19,743 nt of DNA from Candidatus Eiseniibacteriota bacterium. GTDB taxonomy: Bacteria; Arandabacterota; Arandabacteria; JAGLYR01. The notes under the pieces were generated by a model. The model saw nothing but the letters and a program-made list of their open reading frames with translations. It ran no database searches and was not told the origin of the DNA. Below are positions 99-15,241 of this stretch, in pieces. Position 1 is the stretch's first letter; each line of letters starts with the position of its first letter. The position numbers and the translations under genes were made by a program. The stretch is taken from positions 1 through 19,743 of the forward strand of contig JAGLYR010000254.1 in NCBI GenBank assembly GCA_023132135.1, read 5' to 3'.

Positions 99-118
99 AA
101 TATGGAACGAGGTGAATG

Positions 119-511
119 ATGAGAGTTCTCATGACCAGACCCGAGATCTGCAAGGGAGTCCGGGCGTGCGTGACAGCGTGCTCCAAGTACCTCTTCAAGG
201 AGGAGAATCCCGAGAAATCCGCCATCCGGGTGGACGGGAACCCCGGCGGACCTTTCACGATCCAGGTCTGCAACCAGTGCGGCGAGTGCATAGCCGTCTG
301 TCCGACCCAGGCGCTGTACCGCGACAAGGCCGGCGTCGTGAAAATCGACAAGGACAAATGCGTGGGCTGTCTTTCCTGCGTTGGATTCTGTCCCCACGGT
401 GCGATGTACTTCCACGCGGACTACACGGAGCCTTTCAAGTGCGTCGCCTGCGGATCCTGCGTCAAGGCATGTCCAAACGGCGTCCTTTACCTGGAAAACG
501 TAAACCAGTAG
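119..511 (+). CDS. Polyferredoxin, [4Fe-4S] electron-transfer subunit of the AOR system
   Basis: This 130-residue cytoplasmic iron-sulfur protein very likely carries electrons for the AOR-family enzyme encoded next. Three complete C-x2-C-x2-C-x3-C-P motifs are visible, at Cys51-61, Cys81-91 and Cys108-118. An irregular N-terminal set follows the pattern Cys11-x5-Cys17-x3-Cys21, giving 15 cysteines in all. That supports three full clusters; a fourth would lack one ligand. The layout resembles the HycB/NrfC/AorA class of polyferredoxins, in which small subunits pair with molybdenum or tungsten enzymes. Two ATGs overlap at 116 and 119. I prefer 119 because GAGG at 109-112 then sits 6 bases away. 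The AOR gene starts 46 bases after the stop, so the two are probably cotranscribed. Confidence 0.88.
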   Translation: MRVLMTRPEICKGVRACVTACSKYLFKEENPEKSAIRVDGNPGGPFTIQVCNQCGECIAVCPTQALYRDKAGVVKIDKDKCVGCLSCVGFCPHGAMYFHADYTEPFKCVACGSCVKACPNGVLYLENVNQ

Positions 512-557
512 AGAATCATCGCGTCGGGCCGAATCCCGTCGTTCCCGGAGGGAAATC

Positions 558-2726
558 ATGAGTGCTTCGAGACTGTCTGTCGAAGAGATCAGGAACCAGC
601 ACAACGTGCTGGCCGAGTTCGGCTACGAACCCGGCCATGTGGACCGGGGATACACCAACCGCACACTCCACATCAACTTGTCCGATGGCTCAATCCGGAC
701 GAAGCCCGTCACAGACCAGATGAAGGAAATCTTTGTCGGCGGGAGAGGTTTCGGCCTCTGGCATCTCTGGCATGCTGTCACTCCAGAGACCCGGTGGAAC
801 GATCCCGAGAATGAGATCATCTTCTCGGCCGGTCCCATCGGCGGGATTACGCAGTACCCGGGGGCGGGCAAGATGCTTGTGGTCTCCCTCTCGCCGACTA
901 CCGGGATAGTCATCGACTCCAATGTAGGCGGCTACTTCGGCCCACTCCTCAAGTTTGCCGGGTGGGACGCGCTGGAAGTGCAGGGCAAAGCCGAGAAGGA
1001 CGTAATCATCGTGATTGACGGCAACCAGTCCCGCGTTACCGTCGAAGAGGCCCCCGCCGAAGAGGTCGACGCTCATCTCATCAGCGAGCAGCTGACGGAC
1101 ATGTACGCGGACTCTCCGGATTCCAAGAGGGATATCTCGGTAGTTTCCGCCGGAAAGGGGGCGGAGCACGGCCTCATCGGGTGTCTCAACGTTTCCTTTT
1201 ATGACGTTCACCGGAAGGCGCCTCGGATCAAGCAGGCCGGGCGCGGGGGAATCGGGACCGTCTTCCGCGACAAGAAGATCAAGGCCATCGTTGTGAAGTA
1301 CAGCGGCGTCCGGGGCGACACCAATCACCCTGCGGATCTGGAACGAATCAAGAGGGCAGGCGTCCGCCTCCACAGGGAAATCCACGACAACGATCACCTT
1401 CAGTGTCACATGCGAACCGTTGGCACAGCCCATCTGGTGGAGGTCATGAACGACTACGACCTCCTCCCCGTCCACAACTACAGGTTCGGAAGCCATCCCG
1501 ATACCGGGAAAATCGCCTCCCCGGTCTGGAAGAAGAAGTTCACGCAGGGGATTCCGGACGGGTGCTGGTACGGCTGTACGATGGCGTGTGCCCATGCCAT
1601 CGACAAGTTCAAGCTCCGGACCGGTCCGTACAAGGGCGACCGCGTGATTGTCGACGGCCCCGAGTACGAAACGGTGGCCGGGGTCGGGTCCAACTGCGGC
1701 ATCTTCAACCCGGCCGATGTGGCGGAGCTGAACTTCTACTGCGACACCTACGGCATCGACACTATTTCCTGGGGTACCTCCATGGCCTTTGTGATGGAAT
1801 GCTACGAGACCGGGATCCTGAACAAGGAGATCACCGGGGGCATCGAGGCCGCCTTCGGAAACGCCGGCGCGTCCCTGGAGTTCCTGCATCAGCTGGCCCG
1901 GGGAGAAGGCTTTGGAGTGACAGTGGGCCAGGGCATTCGCAGGATGAAGGCGCAATTCGCCAGGGAATACGGCGCGGATCCGGGGTTTCTCTTCGACATC
2001 GGTATGGAATGCAAAGGCCTCGAGTACTCCCAGTACATGACCAAGGAATCCCTGGCGCAGCAGGGCGGGTTCGGGCTGACCAACAAGGGACCCCAGCACG
2101 ACGAGGCCTGGCTCATTTTCATGGACATGGTGAACAACCAGATCCCGACCTTCGAGGACAAGGCCGAGGCGTTGCACTACTTCCCCCTCTTCCGAACCTG
2201 GTTCGGCCTCAACGGTCTGTGCAAGCTCCCGTGGAACGACATCGAGCCCGCCAACAACGCGGAGACCGACGAGCCGGCCAAAGTCCCCGAGCACGTCCAG
2301 AACTACGTCGATCTCTTCTCGGGTGTGACCGGCCGGAAGATCGCGAAGGAAGACCTTATCACGATGTCCGAGGGGGTCTACAACTTCCAGCGGGTGTTCA
2401 ACCTGAGGATGGGAAAGGGACGCCGCGAACATGATGACATCCCCTACCGCTCCGCCGGGCCCGTGACCGTCCAGGAATACGAATCCCGGCATGATCGCTA
2501 CGACAAACAGATGCGAGACAAAATCGGCGTGGATCCAGAGGGGAAATCGACCGAGGAAAAGGTTGCGATCACGCGGAAATATCGCAACGAGCAGTATGAC
2601 AAGCTGAGAGATTCCGTCTACAGGAGACGAGGCTGGACGAAGGATGGTATCCCAACGCTCGAGACCTTGAAGAATCTCAAGGTCGATTTTCCGGAAGTGG
2701 TCGAGGTCGTGAAGGCGCACCTGTAG
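558..2726 (+). CDS. aor: Aldehyde:ferredoxin oxidoreductase family protein (tungstopterin enzyme)
   Basis: The 722-residue product matches the AOR family, which oxidises aldehydes or reduces carboxylates with ferredoxin at a tungsten-bis-pterin centre beside one [4Fe-4S] cluster. Family landmarks are GGRG at 61-64, the stretch SPTTGIVIDSNVGGYFG (112-128) and AGRGGIG (227-233). Candidate cluster ligands are Cys336, Cys340, Cys344 and a late Cys555 in a GLC-K context, matching the three-plus-one arrangement of Pyrococcus AOR. The first three are spaced C-x3-C-x3-C rather than the usual C-x2-C-x3-C. The protein is about 100 residues longer than classical AORs (about 605), with roughly 30 extra residues at the N-terminus and a charged C-terminal extension. 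GGAGGGA at 547-553 supports the start. The substrate cannot be read from sequence, and a carboxylate-reducing or class II benzoyl-CoA-reductase-like role remains possible. Confidence 0.9.
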   Translation: MSASRLSVEEIRNQHNVLAEFGYEPGHVDRGYTNRTLHINLSDGSIRTKPVTDQMKEIFVGGRGFGLWHLWHAVTPETRWNDPENEIIFSAGPIGGITQYPGAGKMLVVSLSPTTGIVIDSNVGGYFGPLLKFAGWDALEVQGKAEKDVIIVIDGNQSRVTVEEAPAEEVDAHLISEQLTDMYADSPDSKRDISVVSAGKGAEHGLIGCLNVSFYDVHRKAPRIKQAGRGGIGTVFRDKKIKAIVVKYSGVRGDTNHPADLERIKRAGVRLHREIHDNDHLQCHMRTVGTAHLVEVMNDYDLLPVHNYRFGSHPDTGKIASPVWKKKFTQGIPDGCWYGCTMACAHAIDKFKLRTGPYKGDRVIVDGPEYETVAGVGSNCGIFNPADVAELNFYCDTYGIDTISWGTSMAFVMECYETGILNKEITGGIEAAFGNAGASLEFLHQLARGEGFGVTVGQGIRRMKAQFAREYGADPGFLFDIGMECKGLEYSQYMTKESLAQQGGFGLTNKGPQHDEAWLIFMDMVNNQIPTFEDKAEALHYFPLFRTWFGLNGLCKLPWNDIEPANNAETDEPAKVPEHVQNYVDLFSGVTGRKIAKEDLITMSEGVYNFQRVFNLRMGKGRREHDDIPYRSAGPVTVQEYESRHDRYDKQMRDKIGVDPEGKSTEEKVAITRKYRNEQYDKLRDSVYRRRGWTKDGIPTLETLKNLKVDFPEVVEVVKAHL

Positions 2727-2729
2727 GAT

Positions 2730-3542
2730 GTGAGATTGCGGATTCTGCTGAACGAACGCCCCAGGGAAATCCCGGATGGGTCCACCCTGTTCGAGCTGAG
2801 GGACAAACACAAGCCCGGTGCGGACGTGGTCATCCTTAATGGGTTCCCCTTGGAGGAGGATCGAATCCTCGCTCCAGGGGATTCGGTTGTCTTCATCCGC
2901 CGTGGTGAAATACCGGGCGAGTCGGAGATGGAGGCGCTCCTCGCAGCACGGCATTCGCCGGGTATTCACAAAAAGCTGAAAGAGAGCGCCGTCGGGATCG
3001 CCGGACTGGGGGGACTCGGCTCAGCTGTGGCCACAGCGCTGGCGCGTGTCGGGATCGGCCGACTGATCCTTGCGGACTTCGATGTCGTCGAGCCCAGCAA
3101 CCTGAATCGCCAGCACTACTTCATCGACCAGATCGGTGTCCCCAAAGTACGGGCGATCTCGGAAACCCTCGGGCGGATCAATCCCTATGTCTCCATAGAG
3201 ACTCACGAGATCCGGCTGGACGAGGAATCGATTCCCCGGGTATTCGCCGGCGCGCAGGTTGTTGTCGAGGCTTTCGACCGAGCCGAGGCAAAGGCCATGC
3301 TCATTGAGACGGTCCTGGAGAGAATGCCGGACGCCTTCGTCGTGGCGGCCTCCGGAGTGGCCGGGTACGGCGAGAACGAGGCGATCCATACGCACCGGTC
3401 GGGAAATCTGATTATCTGCGGGGACGAGAAAACGGCAGCGGCGCCCGGGATGGGACTGATGGCCCCTCGCGTGGGCGTGGTGGCTCACCTGCAGGCTAAC
3501 CTGGTGATGGAAATCCTGCTCAATGATCACAGTAAACGGTGA
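2730..3542 (+). CDS. ThiS-like domain fused to a ThiF/MoeB-type adenylyltransferase
   Basis: This 270-residue protein has two parts. Residues 1-62 look like a ThiS/MoaD beta-grasp domain but lack the terminal Gly-Gly. Residues about 76-265 are an E1-like adenylyltransferase: GLGGLG nucleotide loop (92-97), Asp116 and Asp118 at the end of the second strand, SNLNRQ (123-128) with the conserved Arg127, and Lys139. Family members adenylate the C-terminal glycine of a small sulfur-carrier protein, here most likely the product of the overlapping downstream gene. The zinc-binding CxxC pairs of MoeB are absent, and Cys230 is the only cysteine. The start is GTG, 3 bases after the AOR stop, with no strong ribosome site, which implies translational coupling. 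The operon context points to tungsten/molybdopterin cofactor synthesis, but a thiamine role cannot be excluded. Confidence 0.82.
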   Translation: MRLRILLNERPREIPDGSTLFELRDKHKPGADVVILNGFPLEEDRILAPGDSVVFIRRGEIPGESEMEALLAARHSPGIHKKLKESAVGIAGLGGLGSAVATALARVGIGRLILADFDVVEPSNLNRQHYFIDQIGVPKVRAISETLGRINPYVSIETHEIRLDEESIPRVFAGAQVVVEAFDRAEAKAMLIETVLERMPDAFVVAASGVAGYGENEAIHTHRSGNLIICGDEKTAAAPGMGLMAPRVGVVAHLQANLVMEILLNDHSKR

Positions 3543-4612: not shown

Positions 4613-5290
4613 ATGAATGTGAGAATGGTGATTGTTGTCGGTTTCATTGCGAGCGCTGTGTGTCTCGTGCCCTCAGTCTGGGCCCAGCAGAGCCAGTTCT
4701 CCATGGACTACTGGGGCTTTACGCATGAGGAGAGCGGCGTGTTGTCCGGGTTGGGCTTCATCCCGCTCATCGAACCCCCGCTCGTGGTTGATCTGGAGAA
4801 CTACCAGTACACATGGGTGATTGAAGATGCGGTCCTTGATTCGTCGCGTGTCGACGGTGGGATCGAGTATTACTACTACTCGGGGGGAACGTTCAAGGTC
4901 TACGAGGACACAGTGGAGCCCTGGAACGCGGTCTACAGCGATGCGGACTGCCAGGATCCCGAATGGGTGGGATCCATCTCCGAACCCTGGACTTTCCAGG
5001 ACGGTGAACTCTTTCTGCTGGCTGAGTTCCAGTACCTGAATCGTACCTACTACACCGACTATCAGTTCGGGGACTATGAAGGCATGATGGATCTGACGGG
5101 CGGGACCCACCTGGACGACATTCCGCCGTTGCTCCGGCACGGCTGGACGTTCGGTGGAGCTACCGACCAGCCGTGGGCCTGCATCCCGGAGGACTACGAG
5201 TATCGCTGGGACGGGCAACTGTTTCTCGTAGAAGACCCGACGCGGACGGAGTCGACCACCTGGAGCGGAATCAAGTCCTTCTACCGGTAG
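4613..5290 (+). CDS. Secreted protein of an unrecognised DYWGF family, paralogue 1, with Trp...Lys C-terminal tail
   Basis: The 225-residue product starts with a clear signal peptide, and cleavage after Val-Trp-Ala (residue 24) would expose Gln25. The mature protein begins with MDYWGF and is rich in Tyr, Trp, Gly and acidic residues. It contains SEPWTF, GGTHL and GWTFGG motifs, then PWACIP and DGQLFLVEDP. It ends exactly at the tail TTWSGIKSFYR before the stop. Two mature cysteines (in DADC and ACIP contexts) recur in the other paralogues and may form a disulfide. No membrane segment follows the signal peptide. The closest relative here is 9425-10093, with 43 of the last 63 residues identical. 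I do not recognise the family, and a beta-rich extracellular or periplasmic fold is only inferred. GGGAG at 4601-4605, 7 bases before the ATG, fixes the start. The 5346 gene follows 55 bases on and is probably in the same unit. Confidence 0.82.
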   Translation: MNVRMVIVVGFIASAVCLVPSVWAQQSQFSMDYWGFTHEESGVLSGLGFIPLIEPPLVVDLENYQYTWVIEDAVLDSSRVDGGIEYYYYSGGTFKVYEDTVEPWNAVYSDADCQDPEWVGSISEPWTFQDGELFLLAEFQYLNRTYYTDYQFGDYEGMMDLTGGTHLDDIPPLLRHGWTFGGATDQPWACIPEDYEYRWDGQLFLVEDPTRTESTTWSGIKSFYR

Positions 5291-5345
5291 GCCGCCAGCC
5301 AATTGGCTTGACGCGACGTGAGTAATGAGATCAAGGAGGTTAGCA

Positions 5346-5990
5346 ATGAGAACCGCGATCGGCTTGGCTCTTCTACTGAGCGTACTGCTGAGCGGGGTCC
5401 CCGGTACCGCCCAGATTGTCGACTACTGGGGGTTCTCGGATTTCCCGCAGACTGTGGGCTCCGGAATTGTGGAGGTGGGTTTCGCCATCGAGATTCACGC
5501 GCCCCTGACGTATGATCCGGAGGGTTTCCAGTATACCTACGCCTTCGAAGAACTGATGCTGGCAGAGGTCGTTCCGATGGGACCGGCTACTGTCTACACC
5601 TACCTAGGCGGCTTCTTCAACGTGTATGAGGATGCGTCATTCAACGCGACATATGACGACGCGCAGTGCCTGGTCAGCGACCCGGCCACGTTCACCGACG
5701 GTAGCCTCTACCTGCAGGCCGAGCTGGATACGCTTACCTGGATCTACAACTCCATGACCGGCCGCGGCAGCTACGACGCCGTGATGACCTACACTGGCGG
5801 AACGCACATCGATGAAATCCCCCTCGACTGTCGAGAGGGAATGATGTTCGGCGGCACCACCGACCTGTCTTGCACGGTGTGCATTCCGGAGGGCTATGAT
5901 CACCGGTGGGACGGGCAGGCGTTCACGATCCAGGGACCCTCGGCTGTTGACAGCAGCACCTGGGGATCCGTGAAAACCCTGTTCCGGTAG
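5346..5990 (+). CDS. Secreted protein of the DYWGF family, paralogue 2, with Trp-Gly...Lys tail
   Basis: The 214-residue product has a signal peptide ending Gly-Thr-Ala (residue 22), so the mature protein starts with Gln23 and then IVDYWGFSDF. It keeps the family outline: an FQYTY(A/V)FE strand, VYEDASFNATYDDAQC, FTDGSLYLQAELD, GGTHIDEIP, FGGTTD, CIPEGYDHRWDGQ and the tail STWGSVKTLFR at the stop. It is the most divergent of the three paralogues, with extra cysteines (LDC and SCTVC). The start at 5346 is preferred over 5325 because AAGGAGGT at 5333-5340 sits 5 bases upstream. It is followed 24 bases after the stop by a strong hairpin terminator, so it likely closes a two-gene unit with 4613-5290. 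The function is unknown. Confidence 0.82.
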   Translation: MRTAIGLALLLSVLLSGVPGTAQIVDYWGFSDFPQTVGSGIVEVGFAIEIHAPLTYDPEGFQYTYAFEELMLAEVVPMGPATVYTYLGGFFNVYEDASFNATYDDAQCLVSDPATFTDGSLYLQAELDTLTWIYNSMTGRGSYDAVMTYTGGTHIDEIPLDCREGMMFGGTTDLSCTVCIPEGYDHRWDGQAFTIQGPSAVDSSTWGSVKTLFR

Positions 5991-6014
5991 ACCAGGGAAT
6001 ACTGATCATAATCG

Positions 6015-6041
6015 GCGGGGCCGTGACCTTCACGGCCCCGC
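6015..6041 (+). terminator. Hairpin terminator after the first two DYWGF genes
   Basis: A perfect 12-bp stem (GCGGGGCCGTGA at 6015-6026 pairing with 6030-6041) has a 3-base loop and is followed by TTCT. It is strongly GC-paired but has only a weak T-run, so it may rely on the stem alone or on Rho. It has the same geometry as the hairpin at 14356-14382. Confidence 0.7.
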
Positions 6042-6218
6042 TTCTGCGCGCAACCGATTGGATTGCCAGTAATTAGCACGGTTCAGCCATCATTCTCTGT
6101 ATACCCGTGTCTGTGCAAAGATATGCAGTTGATAAGGGAAGAAATATCACCACCACATGGCTCAGCCGAGTTTGTTGTTACTAAACCCAAAAAAATCATG
6201 TATTTCACAGATTTCCGC

Positions 6219-6248
6219 TTGACGTCGCGGCGCTGGATTTGTTACCAT
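6219..6248 (+). promoter_or_regulatory. Candidate promoter of the cohesin-like gene at 6372
   Basis: TTGACG (6219-6224) and TACCAT (6243-6248) are separated by 18 bases, the same layout as at 4432-4461, and follow an A+T-rich stretch. Transcription would begin near 6255, about 117 bases before the start codon. The shared layout upstream of two secreted-protein genes raises confidence in both. Confidence 0.5.
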
Positions 6249-6371
6249 ACTGAAGCATTTCGACCGCTACCGACCACCGAAGGGTGTGAATCCGGCGCCT
6301 CGCGCACACTGTTCACGCTTGGGATGAGGTGCCCTCGGGTGGTTGCTGCTTTTCACTGCGCGGAGGTTGCA

Positions 6372-6983
6372 ATGGTTCTGCGATACGCGGTCTGCCTCCT
6401 ATGGCTGCTCTTCCTTGTTCCAACAGCGGCGGCCCCACAGTCCGCCACCCTTTCTCTCCAGTTTTTTCCTGACCCCCCGGCCAACGACATCTTCATCGGG
6501 GACACCACCAGAGTATCCATCCATGTGAACGATCCGGGCGTGACTATTCGCGCATTTACCTTCTGTCTGACGTTCGCGCCGGCAGTTGTGCAACTCGGCA
6601 GTGTGCTGCCTGGAACGATCCTGACAAGCCACGGATATCCCTACTTTTTCCTGGACGAAGTGGTTCCCGGGATCGGGGTCGACACGCTCAAAGTGGATGC
6701 CGGGATAGCAGGTCCGTCCTATGGGCCCGGGAGTCTGGCCACCGTGGATTTTGTCGGCGCCACCGCAGGCATGAGCCCTCTCCACTTTGTCCAGTGGGAC
6801 CTGTGTACCGAGGTAGGCGATTCCTGCGTTTCGATTCCGACGACCGCGGTGGATGACACGCTGTTCGTCCGCTATCCGACTTCAGCGGACGGTATTACTC
6901 TCGGGGAGTTGAAGGTTCTGTTCCGCGGCACTGCGGTTGAGCTCGACCGAGGGAAGTGCAAGCCGAATACGGCGGGCGGGTGA
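6372..6983 (+). CDS. Secreted cohesin-like domain protein with a variant Trp-Gly...Lys-type tail
   Basis: The 203-residue product has a signal peptide (hydrophobic residues 5-17, then Pro-Thr-Ala-Ala-Ala). A single cohesin-like beta-sandwich spans about 24-168: a DTTRVSIHVND strand, then RAFTFCLTFAPAVVQLGSV, then GPGSLATVDFVGATAGMSPLHF, the G-x-G-x-(I/L)-(A)-x-(V/I)-x-F signature shared by other modules in this window. Residues 176-185 (TLGELKVLFR) resemble the C-terminal tails of the DYWGF paralogues, but Trp is replaced by Leu and 18 further residues follow. Cohesin-like folds usually bind other proteins or act as structural units, and no enzyme signature is visible. The ATG at 6372 is preceded by GGAGG at 6362-6366, 5 bases away. 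It appears to be transcribed from its own promoter at 6219-6248. Confidence 0.78.
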   Translation: MVLRYAVCLLWLLFLVPTAAAPQSATLSLQFFPDPPANDIFIGDTTRVSIHVNDPGVTIRAFTFCLTFAPAVVQLGSVLPGTILTSHGYPYFFLDEVVPGIGVDTLKVDAGIAGPSYGPGSLATVDFVGATAGMSPLHFVQWDLCTEVGDSCVSIPTTAVDDTLFVRYPTSADGITLGELKVLFRGTAVELDRGKCKPNTAGG

Positions 6984-7020
6984 GTGAATCTGCCTTTTCA
7001 CCTGTGAGATTACAAGGAGA

Positions 7021-7077
7021 CGGTAGCGACCGCGGTCGAAGCATTGCCCATGATCTGATTGTCGTTGGTCGCTACCG
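7021..7077. promoter_or_regulatory. Inverted repeat upstream of the 7195 gene
   Basis: An 11-bp perfect inverted repeat, CGGTAGCGACC at 7021-7031 and its complement at 7067-7077, encloses 35 bases. It lies between the stop of the 6372 gene and the start of the next. It could be a regulator site, a leader stem or a weak terminator. Nine-base direct repeats TTGTACCGC follow at 7085-7093 and 7118-7126. The role is not known. Confidence 0.4.
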
Positions 7078-7194
7078 CTCCGGGTTGTACCGCTTACAGA
7101 AGGCGATACTCTATTGATTGTACCGCGGGTTCGGTGTCGGCGTCAAGCTGCCGGGCACTGCGGGGATGGAGTTCCCGTCTTCCGGGAGACCTCT

Positions 7195-9399
7195 GTGAAG
7201 CATTTGTTGCTCATCGCTGTTCTTGCTCTTTGCATCGCCCCCCACACTTCCGCATCAGCTTCTTCCGCAGGCATCGCAATCTTTGAGTTCGACGAGGACG
7301 GCGGGGATTGGTTTGTTCTCGAGGACTGCTGCCGGAGCGTGGCCAGCGTGAGCTGGGATTCTCTGGACTGGGCCGGACCCCATACTCAAGGGTCTCTCCT
7401 TCTCGAGGCGGATCTCATCGACGGAAGCGATTTGACAGACTGCGGGATTGCCATTCAGTCCGCCGCGTTCAACGACTCTCTTCCTCCGGGAACGGGACTG
7501 TTAGGGGATTTCTCCTCGGGGTTCGGAGCCTTTACCTGTTGGTTATTCGTACCGGATACAACGGCCATCGGGCCCGAAGGTCTGAAAGCCCGTCTCTTCG
7601 CTCGAACCGGCGATGCCGAGAACCATCCCGCCTGGGGCGATTTCCTGGGATGGGATCGTTACGACGGATCCTGGGTCTCCCTGATTCACGGCTGGAATCG
7701 AGTCTGGGTGCCGATGGACAGCGCCTGTCACCATGAGTCGGGAGAACCGCACTGGGGGAGCATCGAGTACCTCGACATTCTCCAGGCCCTGGGAGTCGAG
7801 GTTGCCTCGACGGTTGATCAAGCAGTCCGGGTTCACGTCGATCATTGCATCGCCACGGGAGCCTGCGGCGCCGTGATCGAGTCGGTCACCTGGTGTGGTG
7901 TGCCCGCCCATGACTGCTACGGAGTGGATGAGCCCTTCGGTGTGCGCCTTGAATTCGGCCCCACCCTGCCGGACACCCTGTATCTCAAGGGCGCGTCGAT
8001 CTCCATTCGCTGGTTTCCTCACCAGCTGGAGATGCTGACCATCCTGGAGGGAGACGTCTGGGACGCCGCTTTCCGCACAATTGACAACGCCCAGGGAATG
8101 GCTCAGATCGATCTCGTTTCCTACGAGCCGCAGGGGGTACGCGCCTCTCCCGAGGATCTTGTGGCAAGGTTCTTCTTCATGGCCGAGCGATCCGGACGCG
8201 CCCCCTACTGGATCACGTCCATCGAGTTGCGAGACGCCGAGAACTTCGACGTTCTGCCGGATACCAGCTACGGAGATCTGGCGGGAGACTTCTGGTATTA
8301 CCTCGGAGACTTCACAGAGGATGTCTACGGTGGATATCTCTGGAGCGAGTGTCCAGATCGGGACATCGACGTTTTCGACATCAACGCCTTTTCCATCCAC
8401 TACGGGTTGGTGGAAGAAGACAGCCTTTTTGATTGCCGCGTGGACATCGGCCCCACTTCAACAGGCTGGATCCACGGCATCCCCACTCCCGATGGCGTCA
8501 TCGACTACGACGACCTGGCCATCTTCGCTGCGGCCTACGCGTACCAGGAGGGCGAACTGAACCTGCCGTTGCCGCCTCCTGCTGAGAGCTGGGACGAATT
8601 GAGATCTCTCGTTGTCGAGGCCATGGCGAGCCGGAGGCGGCCCGGCCCCGGGCAGCGCCAGACCGTTGATTACCACTTCTCCCCTTCCGACACCTCGATT
8701 CTCCTGGACGACTCGGTGTGGGTTGACGTCCGGGTCGGCGGTGATGTGGCGGACTTCAAGACTTACCGGGTCCTCATGGAATACGATCCCGAGATCGTTG
8801 AACTTCTGACCCTACGGCAGGGGCCTCTCCTCTTCGAGAGCCCTCACCAGACTTTTTTCCGGAACCGGTCCGAGGGAGACTCTCTCAATGTCCTGGATTC
8901 TATCCTCGGCGCGGGCCTGACCGTGAGCGGACCGGGGAGCATCATCCGCATGTTGTTCAGAGCGGTCGGGCACGGAACGAGCCCCCTGCATTTCAACGAC
9001 GTGCGGCCGGCCGACGTCTGGGGATTGGGCATGGCTGCGACGGCTACGGACGGTTCCATCCAGGTTATTGATCCCACGGGTGTGACCCTTGACGAAGGAA
9101 CCGAGGCGCCCGCGGCGCCGGGTCCCATTACGGTGAGTCCCAACCCATCGGATGGGATATGCCGGCTCCGGTTTTCGAGACCGGACGACGGGCTGTCTCG
9201 CAGGCTGGAGATCGAGATCTTCGATGTCCGGGGGCGCCGGATTCGGTCCTTGAGACCGGGGCCGTCCCCGTCCGGGCAACTTTCGGTGGAATGGGACGGC
9301 AGAGATACGATGGGCAGGCGAGTGCCTGCCGGCGTGTATTTCGCAGTCCTGCGGGCAGGATCGGAGAAGCTCCATGCAAAAATCATCCTGGCCAACTAG
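7195..9399 (+). CDS. Large secreted protein: N-terminal beta-sandwich, two cohesin-like domains, dockerin-like segment, FlgD-Ig/T9SS-like C-terminus
   Basis: The 734-residue product starts at GTG 7195, with GGGAG at 7184-7188, and has a signal peptide (hydrophobic residues 3-15, then HTSASA). Residues about 25-225 form an unassigned beta-rich domain that could bind carbohydrate. A first cohesin-like domain covers about 227-372. A dockerin-like segment with two EF-hand-like loops (DRDIDVFDINAF and TPDGVIDYDDLAIF) covers 386-453. A short polar linker follows, then a second cohesin-like domain (about 490-629, with GPGSIIRMLFRA). The last 90 residues (645-734) have SPNPSDG and WDGRDTMGRRVPAGVYF, typical of FlgD-Ig/type IX-like C-terminal domains that direct or anchor secreted proteins. 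No catalytic motif is visible. The next gene is 25 bases downstream, so both probably share a transcript. Confidence 0.83.
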   Translation: MKHLLLIAVLALCIAPHTSASASSAGIAIFEFDEDGGDWFVLEDCCRSVASVSWDSLDWAGPHTQGSLLLEADLIDGSDLTDCGIAIQSAAFNDSLPPGTGLLGDFSSGFGAFTCWLFVPDTTAIGPEGLKARLFARTGDAENHPAWGDFLGWDRYDGSWVSLIHGWNRVWVPMDSACHHESGEPHWGSIEYLDILQALGVEVASTVDQAVRVHVDHCIATGACGAVIESVTWCGVPAHDCYGVDEPFGVRLEFGPTLPDTLYLKGASISIRWFPHQLEMLTILEGDVWDAAFRTIDNAQGMAQIDLVSYEPQGVRASPEDLVARFFFMAERSGRAPYWITSIELRDAENFDVLPDTSYGDLAGDFWYYLGDFTEDVYGGYLWSECPDRDIDVFDINAFSIHYGLVEEDSLFDCRVDIGPTSTGWIHGIPTPDGVIDYDDLAIFAAAYAYQEGELNLPLPPPAESWDELRSLVVEAMASRRRPGPGQRQTVDYHFSPSDTSILLDDSVWVDVRVGGDVADFKTYRVLMEYDPEIVELLTLRQGPLLFESPHQTFFRNRSEGDSLNVLDSILGAGLTVSGPGSIIRMLFRAVGHGTSPLHFNDVRPADVWGLGMAATATDGSIQVIDPTGVTLDEGTEAPAAPGPITVSPNPSDGICRLRFSRPDDGLSRRLEIEIFDVRGRRIRSLRPGPSPSGQLSVEWDGRDTMGRRVPAGVYFAVLRAGSEKLHAKIILAN

Positions 9400-9424
9400 G
9401 AAGTTTGGGGAAAGGGGAAGAGAC

Positions 9425-10093
9425 ATGAACAGATTCGCGTTGGTGTGTCTTGCGGGTGTTGTGCTGGGTATCGCCCTGCCGGCCCAGGCCCAGAACAGCC
9501 AGTACTCCATGGACTACTGGGGCTACACTCACCAGGAAGGAGGGTTGCTGGGCGGGCTTGGATTTGTCGACGACATCCAGCCGCCCCTGACGGTGGACCT
9601 TGAGAATTTCCAGTACACCTGTGTCTTTGAAGGGCTGCACCTCGACTCGCTCGTCGTCGACGAGTTTGGATACGAGCACTACTACTACACGGGGGGCACC
9701 TTCCGGGTCTACGAGGACGCGTCCTGGAACGCTATTTACGACGACACCTGGTGCCCGGAGCCCTACGACTCGACCTACATCAGCGAACCATGGACCTTTT
9801 CGGACGGCGAGATGATTCTGGGAGGCGAGTTCGACCACCTGCTTCTCGACTACTTTCCCCAGTTCCAGTTCGGCAATTATGACGGGACCATGGACCTGGT
9901 GGAAGGCACACACCTGTACGAGATCCCTGAGATACTCAGGAATGGCTGGACCTTCGGCGGCGTCACAGACCAGCCGTGGGCGTGCATCCCGGATGGCTAC
10001 GAGCATCGCATGGACGGACAGCTGTTTCTCGTAGAGGATCCGACCGCAACGGTGGAAGCAACCTGGGGTGGAGTGAAGTCCCTGTTCAAGTAG
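9425..10093 (+). CDS. Secreted protein of the DYWGF family, paralogue 3, with Trp-Gly...Lys tail
   Basis: The 222-residue product has a signal peptide ending Ala-Gln-Ala (residue 22), so Gln23 becomes the first mature residue. The mature sequence opens with SMDYWGYTHQEGG and follows paralogue 1 closely: PPLTVDLENFQYT, YYYTGGTFRVYEDASWNAIYDD, ISEPWTFSDGEM, GTHLYEIP, GWTFGG, TDQPWACIP, DGQLFLVEDP and the terminal tail ATWGGVKSLFK. The cysteines in TWC and ACIP contexts are conserved with paralogue 1. The start at 9425 follows a purine-rich AAGGGGAAGAG stretch. It lies between two large cohesin-like proteins, 25 bases after one and 35 before the next, so it is probably made in fixed association with them. 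Binding, structural and surface roles are all possible, and none can be chosen from sequence. Confidence 0.83.
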   Translation: MNRFALVCLAGVVLGIALPAQAQNSQYSMDYWGYTHQEGGLLGGLGFVDDIQPPLTVDLENFQYTCVFEGLHLDSLVVDEFGYEHYYYTGGTFRVYEDASWNAIYDDTWCPEPYDSTYISEPWTFSDGEMILGGEFDHLLLDYFPQFQFGNYDGTMDLVEGTHLYEIPEILRNGWTFGGVTDQPWACIPDGYEHRMDGQLFLVEDPTATVEATWGGVKSLFK

Positions 10094-10128
10094 TCACTGT
10101 GAATCCTCTTCAGAAAGGAGTGTCTCAA

Positions 10129-13100
10129 ATGAGAAACTCGCTACCAATCTGCATGCTGGTGGGAGCGGTTGTGTTGCTCGGTGTTGCGCCCGCGTTGGCG
10201 GCGGACATTGACGTCAGCCAGCCCGTACAGGTCACCAACAGCACGTACTACGAGCGCGGCAACAGTATCCTCGAGGACAGCTACGGCAACTTCTGGCTGT
10301 TCTGGGGACAGTCCTACGACTACACCGGGAACTACGCGGGGCCTGGAAATCCCGACAACCACCACTACGAGATTTTCTACAAGACGGCCGGATCGATCGC
10401 CGCGTTGGCCGGAGCAGCAGTCCAGCCGGTCGGCAGCATGCCTACCACGGCTGACCGGATCTACCAGGGCCAGACCTCCTGTGTGGAGTACGGCGGTGAC
10501 GTCTGGGTCTTTGCAGTGGACAGGGGAGATGGCGGAGGCCAGGTCAAGGCATGGACCATCCCGGTCACCGGGGGAACCTGGTCCGTTGCCGACGTCCTGC
10601 CGGATGCTGTGGATCCCTTTGAGGGCACCCACCTCTGGGCCACGGTCCACGACAGCAAGATCCTCCTGGTCGTGAACCGCGGCGGCGATCTTGATGTCTG
10701 CAGCTACAATGGCGTTTCCTGGTCCGGTCTCCACGAGGCCGTGGATCACGAGGGCATGCCCCGTCTCTACGTTGACGGCGGGAATCTCTACCTCTACTGG
10801 TGCAGCTGGGGTTCCCCCGCCTACCACATTCTCCAGTACAGCGCGCCCAGCACGTGGACCGAGATCGCAGCGATAGCCGGAACGCCTGATGATGACTGCG
10901 ACCCGATGCTCACCAAGGTGGGCAGTGACTACGTCTTCATCTTCGCCCCATGGAACGGCACCGTGCAGTTCCTGAAATACTGGACCGCATCTTCACTCGC
11001 CGGGTTCCACGGCCTGGATCAGACCACGGCGAAGATCATGACTGCGGGCAGCTACGGAACCACGTATTGGGTGGATATGTGGCCGGCCACCATCACCGAC
11101 GGCAGTGATGTCTACATGTTCTATGGCTCAGAGGCCAGCGGCACCACCAGCGGCACGGGCAATATCCAGATGCTGGCGCTGGACTGGACAGTCGGCAACG
11201 ATCACTATTGTTACATTCAGAATGCAGTCAATGCGGCCTCGTCGGGCGACGCCATCAGCATCGCCTCCGGGACGTACCCTGAAGGATTGGTCACCATCAC
11301 AACGAGTCTCTCGTTGATCGGGGACACGGGCAGCCGGCCGGTCATCACGCCCGTGGAGGACACCGATCACTCGACGCACCGTGGTTGGTTCCAGATTGAA
11401 GGCGCCTCGACCGTCTGCGACATCAGGAATCTGGTGTTCAACGGCTCCGGCAAGGCAATTGAGAACTGTATCCGGTACCAGGAAGGACCCACGGGAACGG
11501 TGGAAAACTGCGACATCTTAAATATCGACTACACGACGTATGTCGCGTTCGGCATTGTTATTGTTGACTATACAGCGTGGGGCGGCGGTTCCCCCCTGGA
11601 CATCTCCCCGGATTTCTATGTGAAGGATTGCATCTTCAGCAGCATCAAGCGCGTGGGGATCAGCGTGTTCGGAGTGGACCGAGCCTACATCCAGAACTGC
11701 ACCTACACGGGCAAGGGTGACGGTGACTGGCTGGACTATGCAGTTGAAGTCGGCGGTGGCGGGTACGGCGTCATCGAGGACGGATGCGAGATCACCGGCT
11801 GCACCGGTCTTGCCCTGTCGGACAGCTCGACTTCCGCGGGTATTCTCGTAACCGACTACTACGGAGGCCCGAGTCTCGCCGTGATCGACGACAGCGACAT
11901 CCATGACAACACGATGGGGATCGCAGTGGGATACGGAACGACCGACGCGTCGACAGTAACGGTGACGGACAGCGACATCTACGCCAACGAGTACGGCGTC
12001 TCCACCTCATCGAGCCCGGGAATCACGCTCACCGTCACGGGCAACAAGATCCACGACAACACGACCGTGGGGCTCGAGAACGACTGCGACAATCTCGTGG
12101 CCTACAGCAACAAGTTCTACAGGAATGGTCAGAACGCCGAGGATAACGGATCGGCGCCCAACCAGTGGAACCACAGCTCCCCCCCGGGAAACTACTGGGA
12201 TGACTACCTGTTGAACCCGGGGCACCCGAGCGGCTGGTATGAGATCGAGGGGCCGGCAGGCAGCAAGGATGACTCCCCGCTGTCCATTGGCGTTACCCTG
12301 GATCCGGCCACCGCGCTTCTCGACTGCGGCGATCCGATCACCTTTGAGGTGGAGGTAGACGAGTTCGCGCTGGATCTCATGGGCGCCAACTACAAGATAA
12401 ACTACGACGACACGAAGCTGACCTTCGTAACCGCCACTGTGGGCGATCTTCTGAACACCGGCTCCGGCCAGTACATCTTCACGTACTTCGACCTCGGAGG
12501 CGGAGTGATCATCATCAACTCCGCACACCTGGGAACGGGCGTGGATGGTCCGGGTGTGATCGCGGAGATCGCGTTCAACGCCATCGCATCCACAATTCCG
12601 GGGACCACCCCCGTGACCTTCTCAGACGCGGAGCTCCGGAACAGCACTAACCAGGAGATTCCCACCACGTGGACGGGCGCTGATGTCACGATCGACTGCG
12701 ACGACCCCACCATCACGGTCACGCTGGATGCTCCGCCGAGCCCGTGGACATGCTACAACACCACACCCACGGTGGACATCAGCGCTACAGACAACTACGA
12801 CCTCGACTGCGTCAAGTACAACATCGATGGCGGGTCGTGGGTCGACATCGCATGCGGGATCTCGGGACCGTCGTACACCAATAACGACTGGCCTCTGCCC
12901 GGTTTCGGCACGTTGAGCGAGGGTCCGCACACCTACTACTTCAAGGCTACCGATGATGCCGGCAATGAGAGCGCTGAGACATCCGTCACCTTCACCAAGG
13001 ACACCATCAAGCCGGATGCAGTCACGGACTTCACCTCTACGGTGGGTCACAACAGGATCTCTCTTGCCTGGACGAATCCTGGAACGGATGTGGACCGGAT

Positions 13101-14340
13101 CTACGTCTACCGGAACGACTGGACGGACTATCCCGAGTACGTTCCCACCGGGCCCGGCTATCCGACCGTGGGCTCGTACGATTTCCTCGATCCTGGCTAC
13201 GTCTGGACGACGTATGTAGACGCTTCATTCGACAACACGTCCCGGGGAATCTATGCGTACCGCGCGGTGGTCTACGATTGCGCGGGGAACTGGGCCGATC
13301 CAACCGCGCCCTACGAGAGCGATCACGACCGCTCCACTTCCTACTACCTCGGAGATGTGGCTTCCAACGCGGGATCGTGGGGACCCAACTACGACGGTCT
13401 CGTGAGCCAGTTCGACTACAACCCGTTCTCGGGCTGCTACTGGCAGTCGCCTCCCGTGGGCAGTTGCAACGAGGCGGACTTCGGACCGACCATCGAGCCG
13501 GTCCGGGGCCGGTTTGGAATCCCCACGCCTGACGACTACATCGGTTTCGAGGATCTCATGATCTTTGCCATGAACTACGGGAACGTGACCAAGACCGGCG
13601 AACCCGTGGTTGCCGTTCGTCTGGCTGGCTCCAGCGCCGCGGGACACGCGGCGGGCTTCAACCTGGCGCTGTGCGAGACAGCTGATGAGAACGAGTGGAT
13701 GCGCGTGAGCCTGGTGGTCCAGGGAAATGACGCATTCAAGGGTCTGACTGCCGAGGTGGAGTACGATCACGCAGGCCTTGAACTCGTTTCCGTCGCCCCG
13801 TCGGAAGCTCTCATGTCGGGTGATGCGCCCGTTCTCTTTATGGGCGATGAGATCGACGGTACTGTGAGGGTCGACCTTGCCGCGCTGGGAACCGATGTCG
13901 CCATCGGCGGCAATGGTCCCGTGGCAACGCTGACCTTCCGCAGAACGGGCAGCGGCGTGGCAACCGTCCGTGTCGCTCAGGCCGAGGCGAGAGATGCAGA
14001 GAATAGCTCGCTGATGCTGAGCTTCGACGACTCAGGCGGAATATTCGCGAGCGGAACACCCAAGGTCTTCGCGCTCCGGTCCAACACGCCGAACCCGTTC
14101 TCGACCTCCACGATGGTTCACTACGACATCCCGAAGACCGCATCAGTTGCACTCACAATCTACAACATCCGCGGTCAGGTGGTTCGCACGCTCATCCGGG
14201 AGGTTCGCACAGCGGGCAGCTACACCGAGTCGTGGGATGCCCGGGATGCAAACGGGCAAACGGTCTCGCCCGGGATCTACTTCTGTGAGCTGAGGAGCAG
14301 GGACTTCGTCGCTACGCACAAGATGTTGATCACCCGGTAG
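10129..14340 (+). CDS. Giant secreted protein: propeller-like domain, beta-helix, cohesin-like, Ig and Fn3-like, dockerin-like, FlgD-Ig/T9SS-like C-terminus
   Basis: The 1403-residue product has a signal peptide ending Ala-Leu-Ala (about residue 24). Residues 26-357 are rich in short YxxWxF/GNxWLFWG strands and resemble a sialidase-like beta-propeller. Residues 358-718 form a NosD-like right-handed parallel beta-helix (repeated GNKIHDN, NYWDDY). A cohesin-like domain (about 721-857), an Ig-like domain (858-962) and an Fn3-like domain (963-1060) follow. A dockerin-like segment (about 1074-1156) ends GIPTPDDYIGFEDLMIFAMNYG; its first EF-hand loop is degraded. A second cohesin-like domain (1157-1304) and a FlgD-Ig/T9SS-like end (1315-1403, with NTPNPF and WDARDANGQTVSPGIYF) complete it. 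AAAGGAG, 8 bases before the ATG, supports the start. A surface adhesin or polysaccharide-binding role is inferred, and no catalytic residues are identified. The gene at 15312 is a paralogue. Confidence 0.85.
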   Translation: MRNSLPICMLVGAVVLLGVAPALAADIDVSQPVQVTNSTYYERGNSILEDSYGNFWLFWGQSYDYTGNYAGPGNPDNHHYEIFYKTAGSIAALAGAAVQPVGSMPTTADRIYQGQTSCVEYGGDVWVFAVDRGDGGGQVKAWTIPVTGGTWSVADVLPDAVDPFEGTHLWATVHDSKILLVVNRGGDLDVCSYNGVSWSGLHEAVDHEGMPRLYVDGGNLYLYWCSWGSPAYHILQYSAPSTWTEIAAIAGTPDDDCDPMLTKVGSDYVFIFAPWNGTVQFLKYWTASSLAGFHGLDQTTAKIMTAGSYGTTYWVDMWPATITDGSDVYMFYGSEASGTTSGTGNIQMLALDWTVGNDHYCYIQNAVNAASSGDAISIASGTYPEGLVTITTSLSLIGDTGSRPVITPVEDTDHSTHRGWFQIEGASTVCDIRNLVFNGSGKAIENCIRYQEGPTGTVENCDILNIDYTTYVAFGIVIVDYTAWGGGSPLDISPDFYVKDCIFSSIKRVGISVFGVDRAYIQNCTYTGKGDGDWLDYAVEVGGGGYGVIEDGCEITGCTGLALSDSSTSAGILVTDYYGGPSLAVIDDSDIHDNTMGIAVGYGTTDASTVTVTDSDIYANEYGVSTSSSPGITLTVTGNKIHDNTTVGLENDCDNLVAYSNKFYRNGQNAEDNGSAPNQWNHSSPPGNYWDDYLLNPGHPSGWYEIEGPAGSKDDSPLSIGVTLDPATALLDCGDPITFEVEVDEFALDLMGANYKINYDDTKLTFVTATVGDLLNTGSGQYIFTYFDLGGGVIIINSAHLGTGVDGPGVIAEIAFNAIASTIPGTTPVTFSDAELRNSTNQEIPTTWTGADVTIDCDDPTITVTLDAPPSPWTCYNTTPTVDISATDNYDLDCVKYNIDGGSWVDIACGISGPSYTNNDWPLPGFGTLSEGPHTYYFKATDDAGNESAETSVTFTKDTIKPDAVTDFTSTVGHNRISLAWTNPGTDVDRIYVYRNDWTDYPEYVPTGPGYPTVGSYDFLDPGYVWTTYVDASFDNTSRGIYAYRAVVYDCAGNWADPTAPYESDHDRSTSYYLGDVASNAGSWGPNYDGLVSQFDYNPFSGCYWQSPPVGSCNEADFGPTIEPVRGRFGIPTPDDYIGFEDLMIFAMNYGNVTKTGEPVVAVRLAGSSAAGHAAGFNLALCETADENEWMRVSLVVQGNDAFKGLTAEVEYDHAGLELVSVAPSEALMSGDAPVLFMGDEIDGTVRVDLAALGTDVAIGGNGPVATLTFRRTGSGVATVRVAQAEARDAENSSLMLSFDDSGGIFASGTPKVFALRSNTPNPFSTSTMVHYDIPKTASVALTIYNIRGQVVRTLIREVRTAGSYTESWDARDANGQTVSPGIYFCELRSRDFVATHKMLITR
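10213..10239 (+). repeat. 27-base exact repeat, copy 1
   Basis: Identical to 15393-15419. It encodes the shared VSQPVQVTN stretch just after the signal peptide of the two propeller/beta-helix paralogues. It lies inside coding sequence and marks recent duplication or gene conversion rather than a mobile element. Confidence 0.85.
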
Positions 14341-14382: not shown

Positions 14383-14425
14383 ACCGCTCCACCCTGTGCA
14401 ACACAGTTTGGAGATGGAGGGAACC

Positions 14426-15241
14426 ATGAAACATCACCCAGGATTGCTGGGTGGAATACTCACGGTACTGCTCTTGATGGGCGCCGGCACCGCCGCCGCT
14501 TCCTTGAGCGTTTCCGTCCAGCCTCCTGTGAGCTACGTCGCTCTTGGTGACACCGTAGAGATCGCCATTCACATGGAGGGCCCGGATTCCATTGGTTGGT
14601 ACTGGGTGCAGATCCGCGTCAACGAACAGGTTCTGGCGTTCCTGGACTGCTCTACGGACGTCATGGACGGATGTCCCAACGGTTCCTGGTGCCCGGACTG
14701 TGGTCCCACCGGAGACCCGGGCGTCGTCTCGATCTGCTGCGCCTGTTTCGGGACGCACACCTGCGTAGGCATACCGGCAGATGTTGCCGTGATCCGGTAC
14801 ACCGTGACCGGCATCGGGATCTCGTCGGTGGTCTTCGAGGAAGCTCACGCCAGCGATTGTGACCGGGACATGATCGGGATCGATTCGGTGGAGAATGGGC
14901 TGGTGATCGTGGCAGGTGCAGGCGTGGACCGGGAACCTCCTGGCCTCCCTTCCCCCACCCTGTTTTGCTATCCCAATCCCTTCATGAACTCGATCACGCT
15001 GGAATACATTATTCCTTCATTCCAGAAGGGAATCACGCCCGCGGAAACAGCGGAACTCAGGATCTTTGATTGTCGAGGGCGGCAGATCCGGAACCTTCCT
15101 CTTGACTTTGAACCCGGGGAGCACCGGGCGGTGTGGGACGGGTTGGACCAGAGGGGGCGTCCGGTGCCCTCCGGTGTGTATTTTTGCCGAATCGGGACAG
15201 ACAGGAGCGTGAGCATTCAGAAGATCATGAAACTGGAATAG
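14426..15241 (+). CDS. Secreted cohesin-like protein with a cysteine-rich insert and FlgD-Ig/T9SS-like C-terminus
   Basis: The 271-residue product has a signal peptide (hydrophobic residues 7-18, cleavage near Ala25). Residues about 26-170 follow a cohesin-like pattern (GDTVEIAIHMEG, then IGWYWVQIRVNEQVLAFLDC, then VAVIRYTVTGIGISSVVFEEA). The middle is interrupted by a cysteine-dense loop with eight Cys between 75 and 113, including CPDC and CCAC. This could form disulfides or bind a metal. Residues about 185-271 are a FlgD-Ig/T9SS-like domain (YPNPFMNSITLEY, then VWDGLDQRGRPVPSGVYF). GGAGGG at 14416-14421 supports the ATG at 14426. The gene begins only 44 bases after a terminator hairpin, so it is probably reached by partial readthrough or by a promoter I could not see. 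A small adaptor or binding protein is likely. Confidence 0.8.
   Translation: MKHHPGLLGGILTVLLLMGAGTAAASLSVSVQPPVSYVALGDTVEIAIHMEGPDSIGWYWVQIRVNEQVLAFLDCSTDVMDGCPNGSWCPDCGPTGDPGVVSICCACFGTHTCVGIPADVAVIRYTVTGIGISSVVFEEAHASDCDRDMIGIDSVENGLVIVAGAGVDREPPGLPSPTLFCYPNPFMNSITLEYIIPSFQKGITPAETAELRIFDCRGRQIRNLPLDFEPGEHRAVWDGLDQRGRPVPSGVYFCRIGTDRSVSIQKIMKLE

Follow-up and report, generated by a model that had tools for sequence, protein, structure and literature searches.

A short C-terminal tail shared by unrelated exported proteins, probably an undescribed sorting signal

Several secreted proteins encoded in one 19,743-nucleotide stretch of bacterial DNA (hereafter the window) close on much the same short peptide, which raises the question of whether this peptide is merely the end of one protein family or a portable label carried by many. 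Entire enzyme systems (sortase, exosortase, rhombosortase, and T9SS) have come to light through C-terminal sorting signals. The tail analyzed here has a core of approximately ten residues, Thr-Trp-Gly-x-Ile-Lys-x-Leu-Tyr-Arg, and probably represents an undescribed address label for moving proteins to the outer surface or fixing them there. Hundreds of exported proteins that otherwise defy annotation carry it, in phyla of which few or no members have been cultured, and it provides a simple rule for surface-proteome prediction in these phyla.

Tailed proteins of the window

The features of the window that bear on this question are listed below.

4613–5290, + strand: secreted YWGF-family protein, W-tailed, with signal peptide MNVRMVIVVGFIASAVCLVPSVWA; no Pfam or NCBIfam match
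5255–5290, + strand: C-terminal tail TTWSGIKSFYR and TAG stop
5346–5990, + strand: secreted YWGF-family paralog, W-tailed
5955–5990, + strand: C-terminal tail STWGSVKTLFR and TAG stop
6372–6983, + strand: secreted cohesin-like protein whose tail is a non-terminal variant (PF00963, weak, below cut-off)
6897–6926, + strand: TLGELKVLFR, a variant (W to L) or decayed tail with 18 further residues after it; such variants are rare
7114–9399, + strand: neighboring secreted protein with an alternative T9SS-type FlgD_ig C-terminal domain (PF13860, E=3e-8)
9425–10093, + strand: secreted YWGF-family paralog, W-tailed
10058–10093, + strand: C-terminal tail ATWGGVKSLFK and TAG stop
9976–14340, + strand: beta-helix and cohesin-like protein with a FlgD_ig/Por_Secre_tail C-terminus (TIGR04183, 34.6 bits, cut-off 23)
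14396–15241, + strand: small secreted protein with a FlgD_ig/Por_Secre_tail C-terminus (TIGR04183, 25.8 bits, cut-off 23)

The three terminal tails lie exactly where the earlier note had placed them, and each ends its open reading frame (ORF) at TAG, nine codons after the W codon (5261, 5961, and 10064). Their carriers are 46%–62% identical and are paralogs of one family (YWGF), which has no match in Pfam or NCBIfam and for which AlphaFold2, with only five sequences available, gave a pLDDT of 48. The fourth case put forward, TLGELKVLFR, is present as described, but it is of little use as evidence, since it lacks Trp and is located 18 residues ahead of the stop codon (6981–6983); we class it as a variant or decayed form of the tail. 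Because the three tailed proteins are paralogs and the fourth case is weak, portability cannot be read from the window by itself. The claim that the tail sits on two different folds has only weak support within the window; it holds genome-wide, where approximately 14 groups carry it, and it is at the genome level that portability is decided.

The real start of the 9976–14340 ORF is probably near 10129, and the product of 14396–15241 is cohesin-like by inspection. By inspection only, positions 116–3542 probably encode a ferredoxin, an aldehyde ferredoxin oxidoreductase (558–2726), and a ThiS-ThiF-like fusion (2730–3542); these genes are unrelated to the tail.

Position, composition, and range of the tail

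Genomes were searched at the DNA level with the stop-free pattern W-[GS...]-x-[IVLM]-K-x-[LF]-[FY]-[RK...], and the reversed pattern served as the control. In the 3.4-Mb genome of the window, the pattern matched 26 times and the reversed control not once. When all matches were translated, 24 of the 26 ended exactly at a stop codon, one had a single extra residue, and one had four; a signal peptide was present in all 23 tailed ORFs whose start lies on the contig. Across eight genomes of the window's phylum, 119 stop-free matches were obtained (none in the reversed controls), with a stop codon directly after the match in 114. Four of the five exceptions end within one to four residues, and the fifth (G003:C42) is a non-consensus match. 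Overall, signal peptides were called by a crude hydrophobicity rule in approximately 150 of 172 complete tailed ORFs. The earlier note had conceded that a pattern equally common at internal positions or in cytoplasmic proteins would refute a portable signal, and the terminal matches and signal peptides remove this objection.

With the stop codon included in the pattern, the tail was found in all eight genomes analyzed from the window's phylum (114 matches). It was also present in 40 of the 47 genomes from the Eisenbacteria phylum (399 matches) and in 74 of the 80 from a third phylum (681 matches), whose MAGs were deposited as Krumholzibacteriia, Latescibacterota, and others. Within Eisenbacteria, G053, G078, G079, and G083–G085 hold almost no tails, in contrast to their tail-rich sisters. 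Together, the three phyla yielded approximately 1,190 tail matches without a control match in any genome, and G018 is among the genomes holding more than 40 tails. Since the patterns are exact, these counts are lower bounds; many of the genomes searched are also incomplete. In a scan of GTDB species, the matches listed with a phylum name came nearly all from Eisenbacteria, Krumholzibacteriota, Latescibacterota, and similar uncultured phyla, and none of the matches so listed came from Bacteroidota or Proteobacteria. A few were labelled Planctomycetota, Rokuibacteriota, or Gemmatimonadota and may derive from mislabelled or contaminated bins.

The consensus of 194 tails is P-[STV]-[PAG]-[VTA]-E-x-[ST]-[TS]-W-G-x-[IV]-K-[AS]-L-Y-R-stop, or in short form P-x-P-V-E-x-S-T-W-G-x-I-K-A-L-Y-R-stop. 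The invariance of W and K in this set is built in by the search pattern; other positions reach 91%–95% (G in 181, L in 181, Y in 177, and R in 184). A linker with P at −8 and E at −4 (E in 101 tails) is also conserved, and because it lies outside the search pattern, a common element of approximately 17 residues is independently supported. Replacing Trp by F or Y in the same motif gave a single match in 16 genomes, whose W tails number roughly 300; variation at Trp is otherwise almost absent. Rare W-to-F variants were observed (SFGSVKALFR, TFGEIKALYRR, and SFGEIKALFR in L133, L062, and L225). At the fixed residues, third codon positions are free to vary and the three stop codons are interchangeable. 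Because synonymous codons vary freely, selection acts on the peptide.

The tail is predicted to be a flexible appendage outside the fold. For a W-tailed family of 13 sequences, AlphaFold2 gave a pLDDT of 86 overall, with about 90 for the core, modelled as a cohesin-like beta-sandwich, and less than 50 for the tail, where a helix is placed with low confidence. The absence of a membrane segment and of an Ig-like C-terminal domain, both noted earlier, was confirmed: no hydrophobic stretch is found in the last 25 residues of tailed proteins, and Lys and Arg lie inside the motif. An amphipathic helix or strand was considered and rejected, as the hydrophobic moment of the consensus is unexceptional and is reached by 22%–23% of permutations.

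When the cores were compared by BLAST, 178 tailed proteins fell into 79 clusters, and the 27 tailed ORFs of the window's genome fell into approximately 14 unrelated groups. Pfam identified 41 families among 124 of the tailed proteins, including beta-helix, cleaved-adhesin, pre-peptidase, lamin-tail, CHRD, PKD, NHL propeller, and thioester domains. NCBIfam identified choice-of-anchor J (five tailed proteins) and choice-of-anchor V, as well as families defined by rhombosortase, myxosortase, or PEP-CTERM dependence. The members of a family that NCBI names "choice-of-anchor" end in different, interchangeable anchors. No model of the tail itself appeared in the Pfam or NCBIfam results, and in the literature searched, neither the tail nor any sorting signal of Eisenbacteria, Krumholzibacteriota, or Latescibacterota was the subject of a paper. 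We consider it firm that the tail exists, that it is terminal, that it is portable across unrelated exported proteins, and that it is absent from the libraries and papers searched. The proposal of a portable C-terminal signal is well supported by the unrelated groups, the terminal position, and the signal peptides, and the outcome that would have refuted it, a tail confined to one family at one alignment position, did not materialize. A lipobox (LGC, VGC, or PGC) was seen in some W-tailed proteins (L062:5283–6597 and L124:5814–6479), and the tail is probably found on lipoproteins as well.

Phages encode the tail too. Among 2.9 million viral contigs, the strict pattern matched six and a second pattern matched one more. 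Two related phages (L226 and L227) encode a metallophosphoesterase ending in STWGQVKSLYR together with a phage DNA primase and phage tail genes; L226 also encodes a family A polymerase, and L227 an endolysin. L229 and L230 combine phage tail or endolysin genes with a tailed secreted protein, and in L231 a tailed ORF lies beside SSB, exonuclease, and Erf genes. Another phage contig, L232, also encodes a W-tailed protein. Since phage contigs carry tailed proteins, phages seem to use the sorting tag of the host. No cleavable signal peptide is obvious in the metallophosphoesterase, a fact for which the sorting model does not account.

Candidate readers of the tail

Tailed genomes hold from 22 to at least 150 FlgD_ig domains, many of which are T9SS-like C-terminal domains, and three of these lie in the window. 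When searched with an HMM of the window's FlgD_ig tails, none of 181 tailed ORFs from the fetched loci showed such a domain, and 17 of the 181 have a core homologous to that of a FlgD_ig-tailed protein. In L072 and L155, a homologous pair of the two kinds shares a locus, and in G003 (L037/L045) a pair shares a contig. The median length is 252 residues for W-tailed ORFs versus 513 for FlgD_ig-tailed ORFs. In the ORFs examined, homologous cores carry the W tail or the T9SS-type Ig-like domain, never both, and the two modules behave as alternatives. This exchange and the choice-of-anchor cores strengthen the idea of sorting or anchoring raised in the earlier note. It remains an inference, and we judge it probable that the tail is a portable C-terminal sorting tag.

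The T9SS translocon SprA was matched in 32 of 33 tail-bearing genomes (31 over the cut-off) and in none of 14 control genomes. PorV-family proteins were found in all 32 genomes tested (4–16 per genome and 12 in that of the window), as were C25/PorU-like peptidases (2–29 per genome). Gingipain-like C25 peptidases gave 27 matches in the window's genome (e.g., G000:C141:3114–4223) versus 2–6 in most Eisenbacteria tested. A C25/PorU-like ORF adjoins a PorV-family ORF at G000:C141 and at G018:C22:320405–323567, and this pair is a probable T9SS attachment operon outside Bacteroidota. By inspection, the sprA-like gene adjoins two LptF/LptG-like ORFs, upstream of RimP-/NusA-like ORFs, in three genomes (L178, L179, and L181).

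However, tail-less Eisenbacteria possess SprA, PorV, and C25 proteins equally, so that co-occurrence is not diagnostic of the tail reader, and all three were rejected as discriminating partners. The suggestion that the tail might track with a particular transpeptidase, protease, or secretion gene did not hold, as none of those examined was specific to it. A conserved neighbor was likewise rejected as the machinery: when 783 ORFs from the surroundings of tailed genes were clustered, no family other than cargo recurred. No SprA match was obtained in G029, a Cloacimonadota genome that bears tails, and G020, G050, and G051 had none at E≤1e-10; incompleteness is not excluded in these cases.

Taken as a whole, the explanation that we favor, if only slightly, is a portable sorting signal for which a T9SS-type shuttle is the best candidate reader. 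The tail ends the chain, and a short linker joins it to small proteins that are unrelated to one another and mostly have an N-terminal signal peptide. Tailed proteins would first be exported by Sec to the periplasm, where an envelope receptor would bind the last ten or so residues of P-[STV]-[PA]-[VT]-E-x-[ST]-[TS]-W-G-x-[IV]-K-[AS]-L-Y-R-COOH; the "PVE" linker might be where recognition or cleavage takes place. The best receptor candidate would be a PorV-type shuttle together with SprA and a PorU-like sortase; the tail would then be a minimal alternative to the Ig-like T9SS C-terminal domain (CTD) of approximately 80 residues, and the small proteins would be placed on, or released at, the cell surface. 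That T9SS reads the tail is inferred rather than demonstrated, and to us the chances appear even.

A minimal T9SS signal is plausible in light of three findings: the minimal region with which a GFP fusion is still secreted comprises the last 22 residues of the HBP35 CTD (PMC3120885), short CTDs of 40–55 residues are predicted to bind PorV in the same way as long ones (PMC11969387), and Flavobacterium johnsoniae uses different shuttles for different signals (PMC12618676). By inference, the many PorV paralogs would fit a dedicated W-tail shuttle. Contrarily, the tail is without T9SS CTD motifs (no GxY motif D and no three-strand sheet), and the tail-less relatives with SprA, PorV, and C25 proteins, the SprA-negative G029, and the lack of a recurrent neighbor gene count against the favored explanation as a whole.

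It is conceivable, though rather unlikely, that a dedicated route distinct from T9SS and from all transmembrane CTERM systems reads the ten-residue peptide in several uncultured phyla, and that the phages of these bacteria encode proteins with the same peptide to use this route. We are comparably doubtful that the tail sorts or anchors proteins without T9SS, as a peptide that docks Sec-exported proteins to an undescribed envelope receptor such as an outer-membrane protein, peptidoglycan, or an S-layer or vesicle component. Such docking would suit a tail with no sequence resemblance to T9SS CTDs, the extreme conservation of W, K, L, Y, and R (as in a groove-binding peptide), the few lipoprotein-like tailed proteins (L062 and L124), and the tailed genomes without detectable SprA; yet no candidate receptor emerged, homologous cores bear the tail in place of T9SS-type domains, and T9SS parts occur in nearly all tailed genomes. 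An assembly peptide, a mini-dockerin that binds cohesin-like modules and builds extracellular complexes, is improbable. Tailed genes do adjoin cohesin-like proteins in the window, cohesin-like modules are common in these genomes, and one W-tailed family has a cohesin-like fold, but cohesin-like proteins themselves carry the tail, which is found on every kind of protein and has none of the duplicated calcium loops of dockerins. Ordinary shared ancestry, with the tail as the C-terminus of one expanded family, would account for the three paralogs of the window but is refuted by the 79 clusters without detectable core similarity (14 in the window's genome) and the 41 Pfam families, and we give it almost no credence. 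Least credible of all is a DNA or RNA signal near the stop codon (a terminator or regulator) that happens to encode a peptide, as its position at the gene end is countered by fixed residues, free third positions, and interchangeable stops. As a portable sorting signal, the tail is small enough to serve as a practical minimal tag if its receptor is found.

Comparison with known systems

Like dockerins, the tail is a small C-terminal module of secreted proteins in genomes with cohesin-like domains. It is far shorter than a dockerin and lacks the duplicated EF-hand loop, and no dockerin family is among the 25 Pfam families listed for tailed proteins. The signals of the PEP-CTERM/exosortase, LPXTG/sortase, GlyGly-CTERM/rhombosortase, and MYXO-CTERM/myxosortase systems resemble the tail as short C-terminal homologies of otherwise unrelated exported proteins, and they also occur on choice-of-anchor cores. 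Unlike them, the tail has neither a transmembrane helix nor a C-terminal basic cluster and implies no intramembrane processing enzyme; the succession of signature motif, transmembrane helix, and basic cluster that defines PEP-CTERM, LPXTG, and GlyGly-CTERM signals is not met.

The T9SS type A CTD (TIGR04183 and PF18962, including the short CTDs of Prevotella intermedia) is likewise C-terminal on Sec-exported proteins of many folds, is present in dozens of copies per genome, and ends hydrophobic-hydrophobic-basic; SprA, PorV, and PorU-like proteins are encoded in the same genomes as the tail. In contrast to these CTDs of 40–80 residues, the tail spans about 10–18 residues, lacks the GxY motif and the beta-sandwich, and alone conserves Trp-Gly and Lys. 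No CTD family is among the 25 Pfam and 25 NCBIfam families listed for 124 tailed proteins, and the tail does not fulfil the definition of a T9SS CTD (40–80 residues, at least three beta-strands, and motifs B, D (GxY), and E). The genomic requirement for T9SS substrates (SprA, PorV, and a C25 sortase) is met, as it also is in tail-less relatives. If T9SS reads the tail, it would be a signal much shorter than the shortest described T9SS signals that we found (40–55 residues); if it does not, the tail would point to a new pathway.
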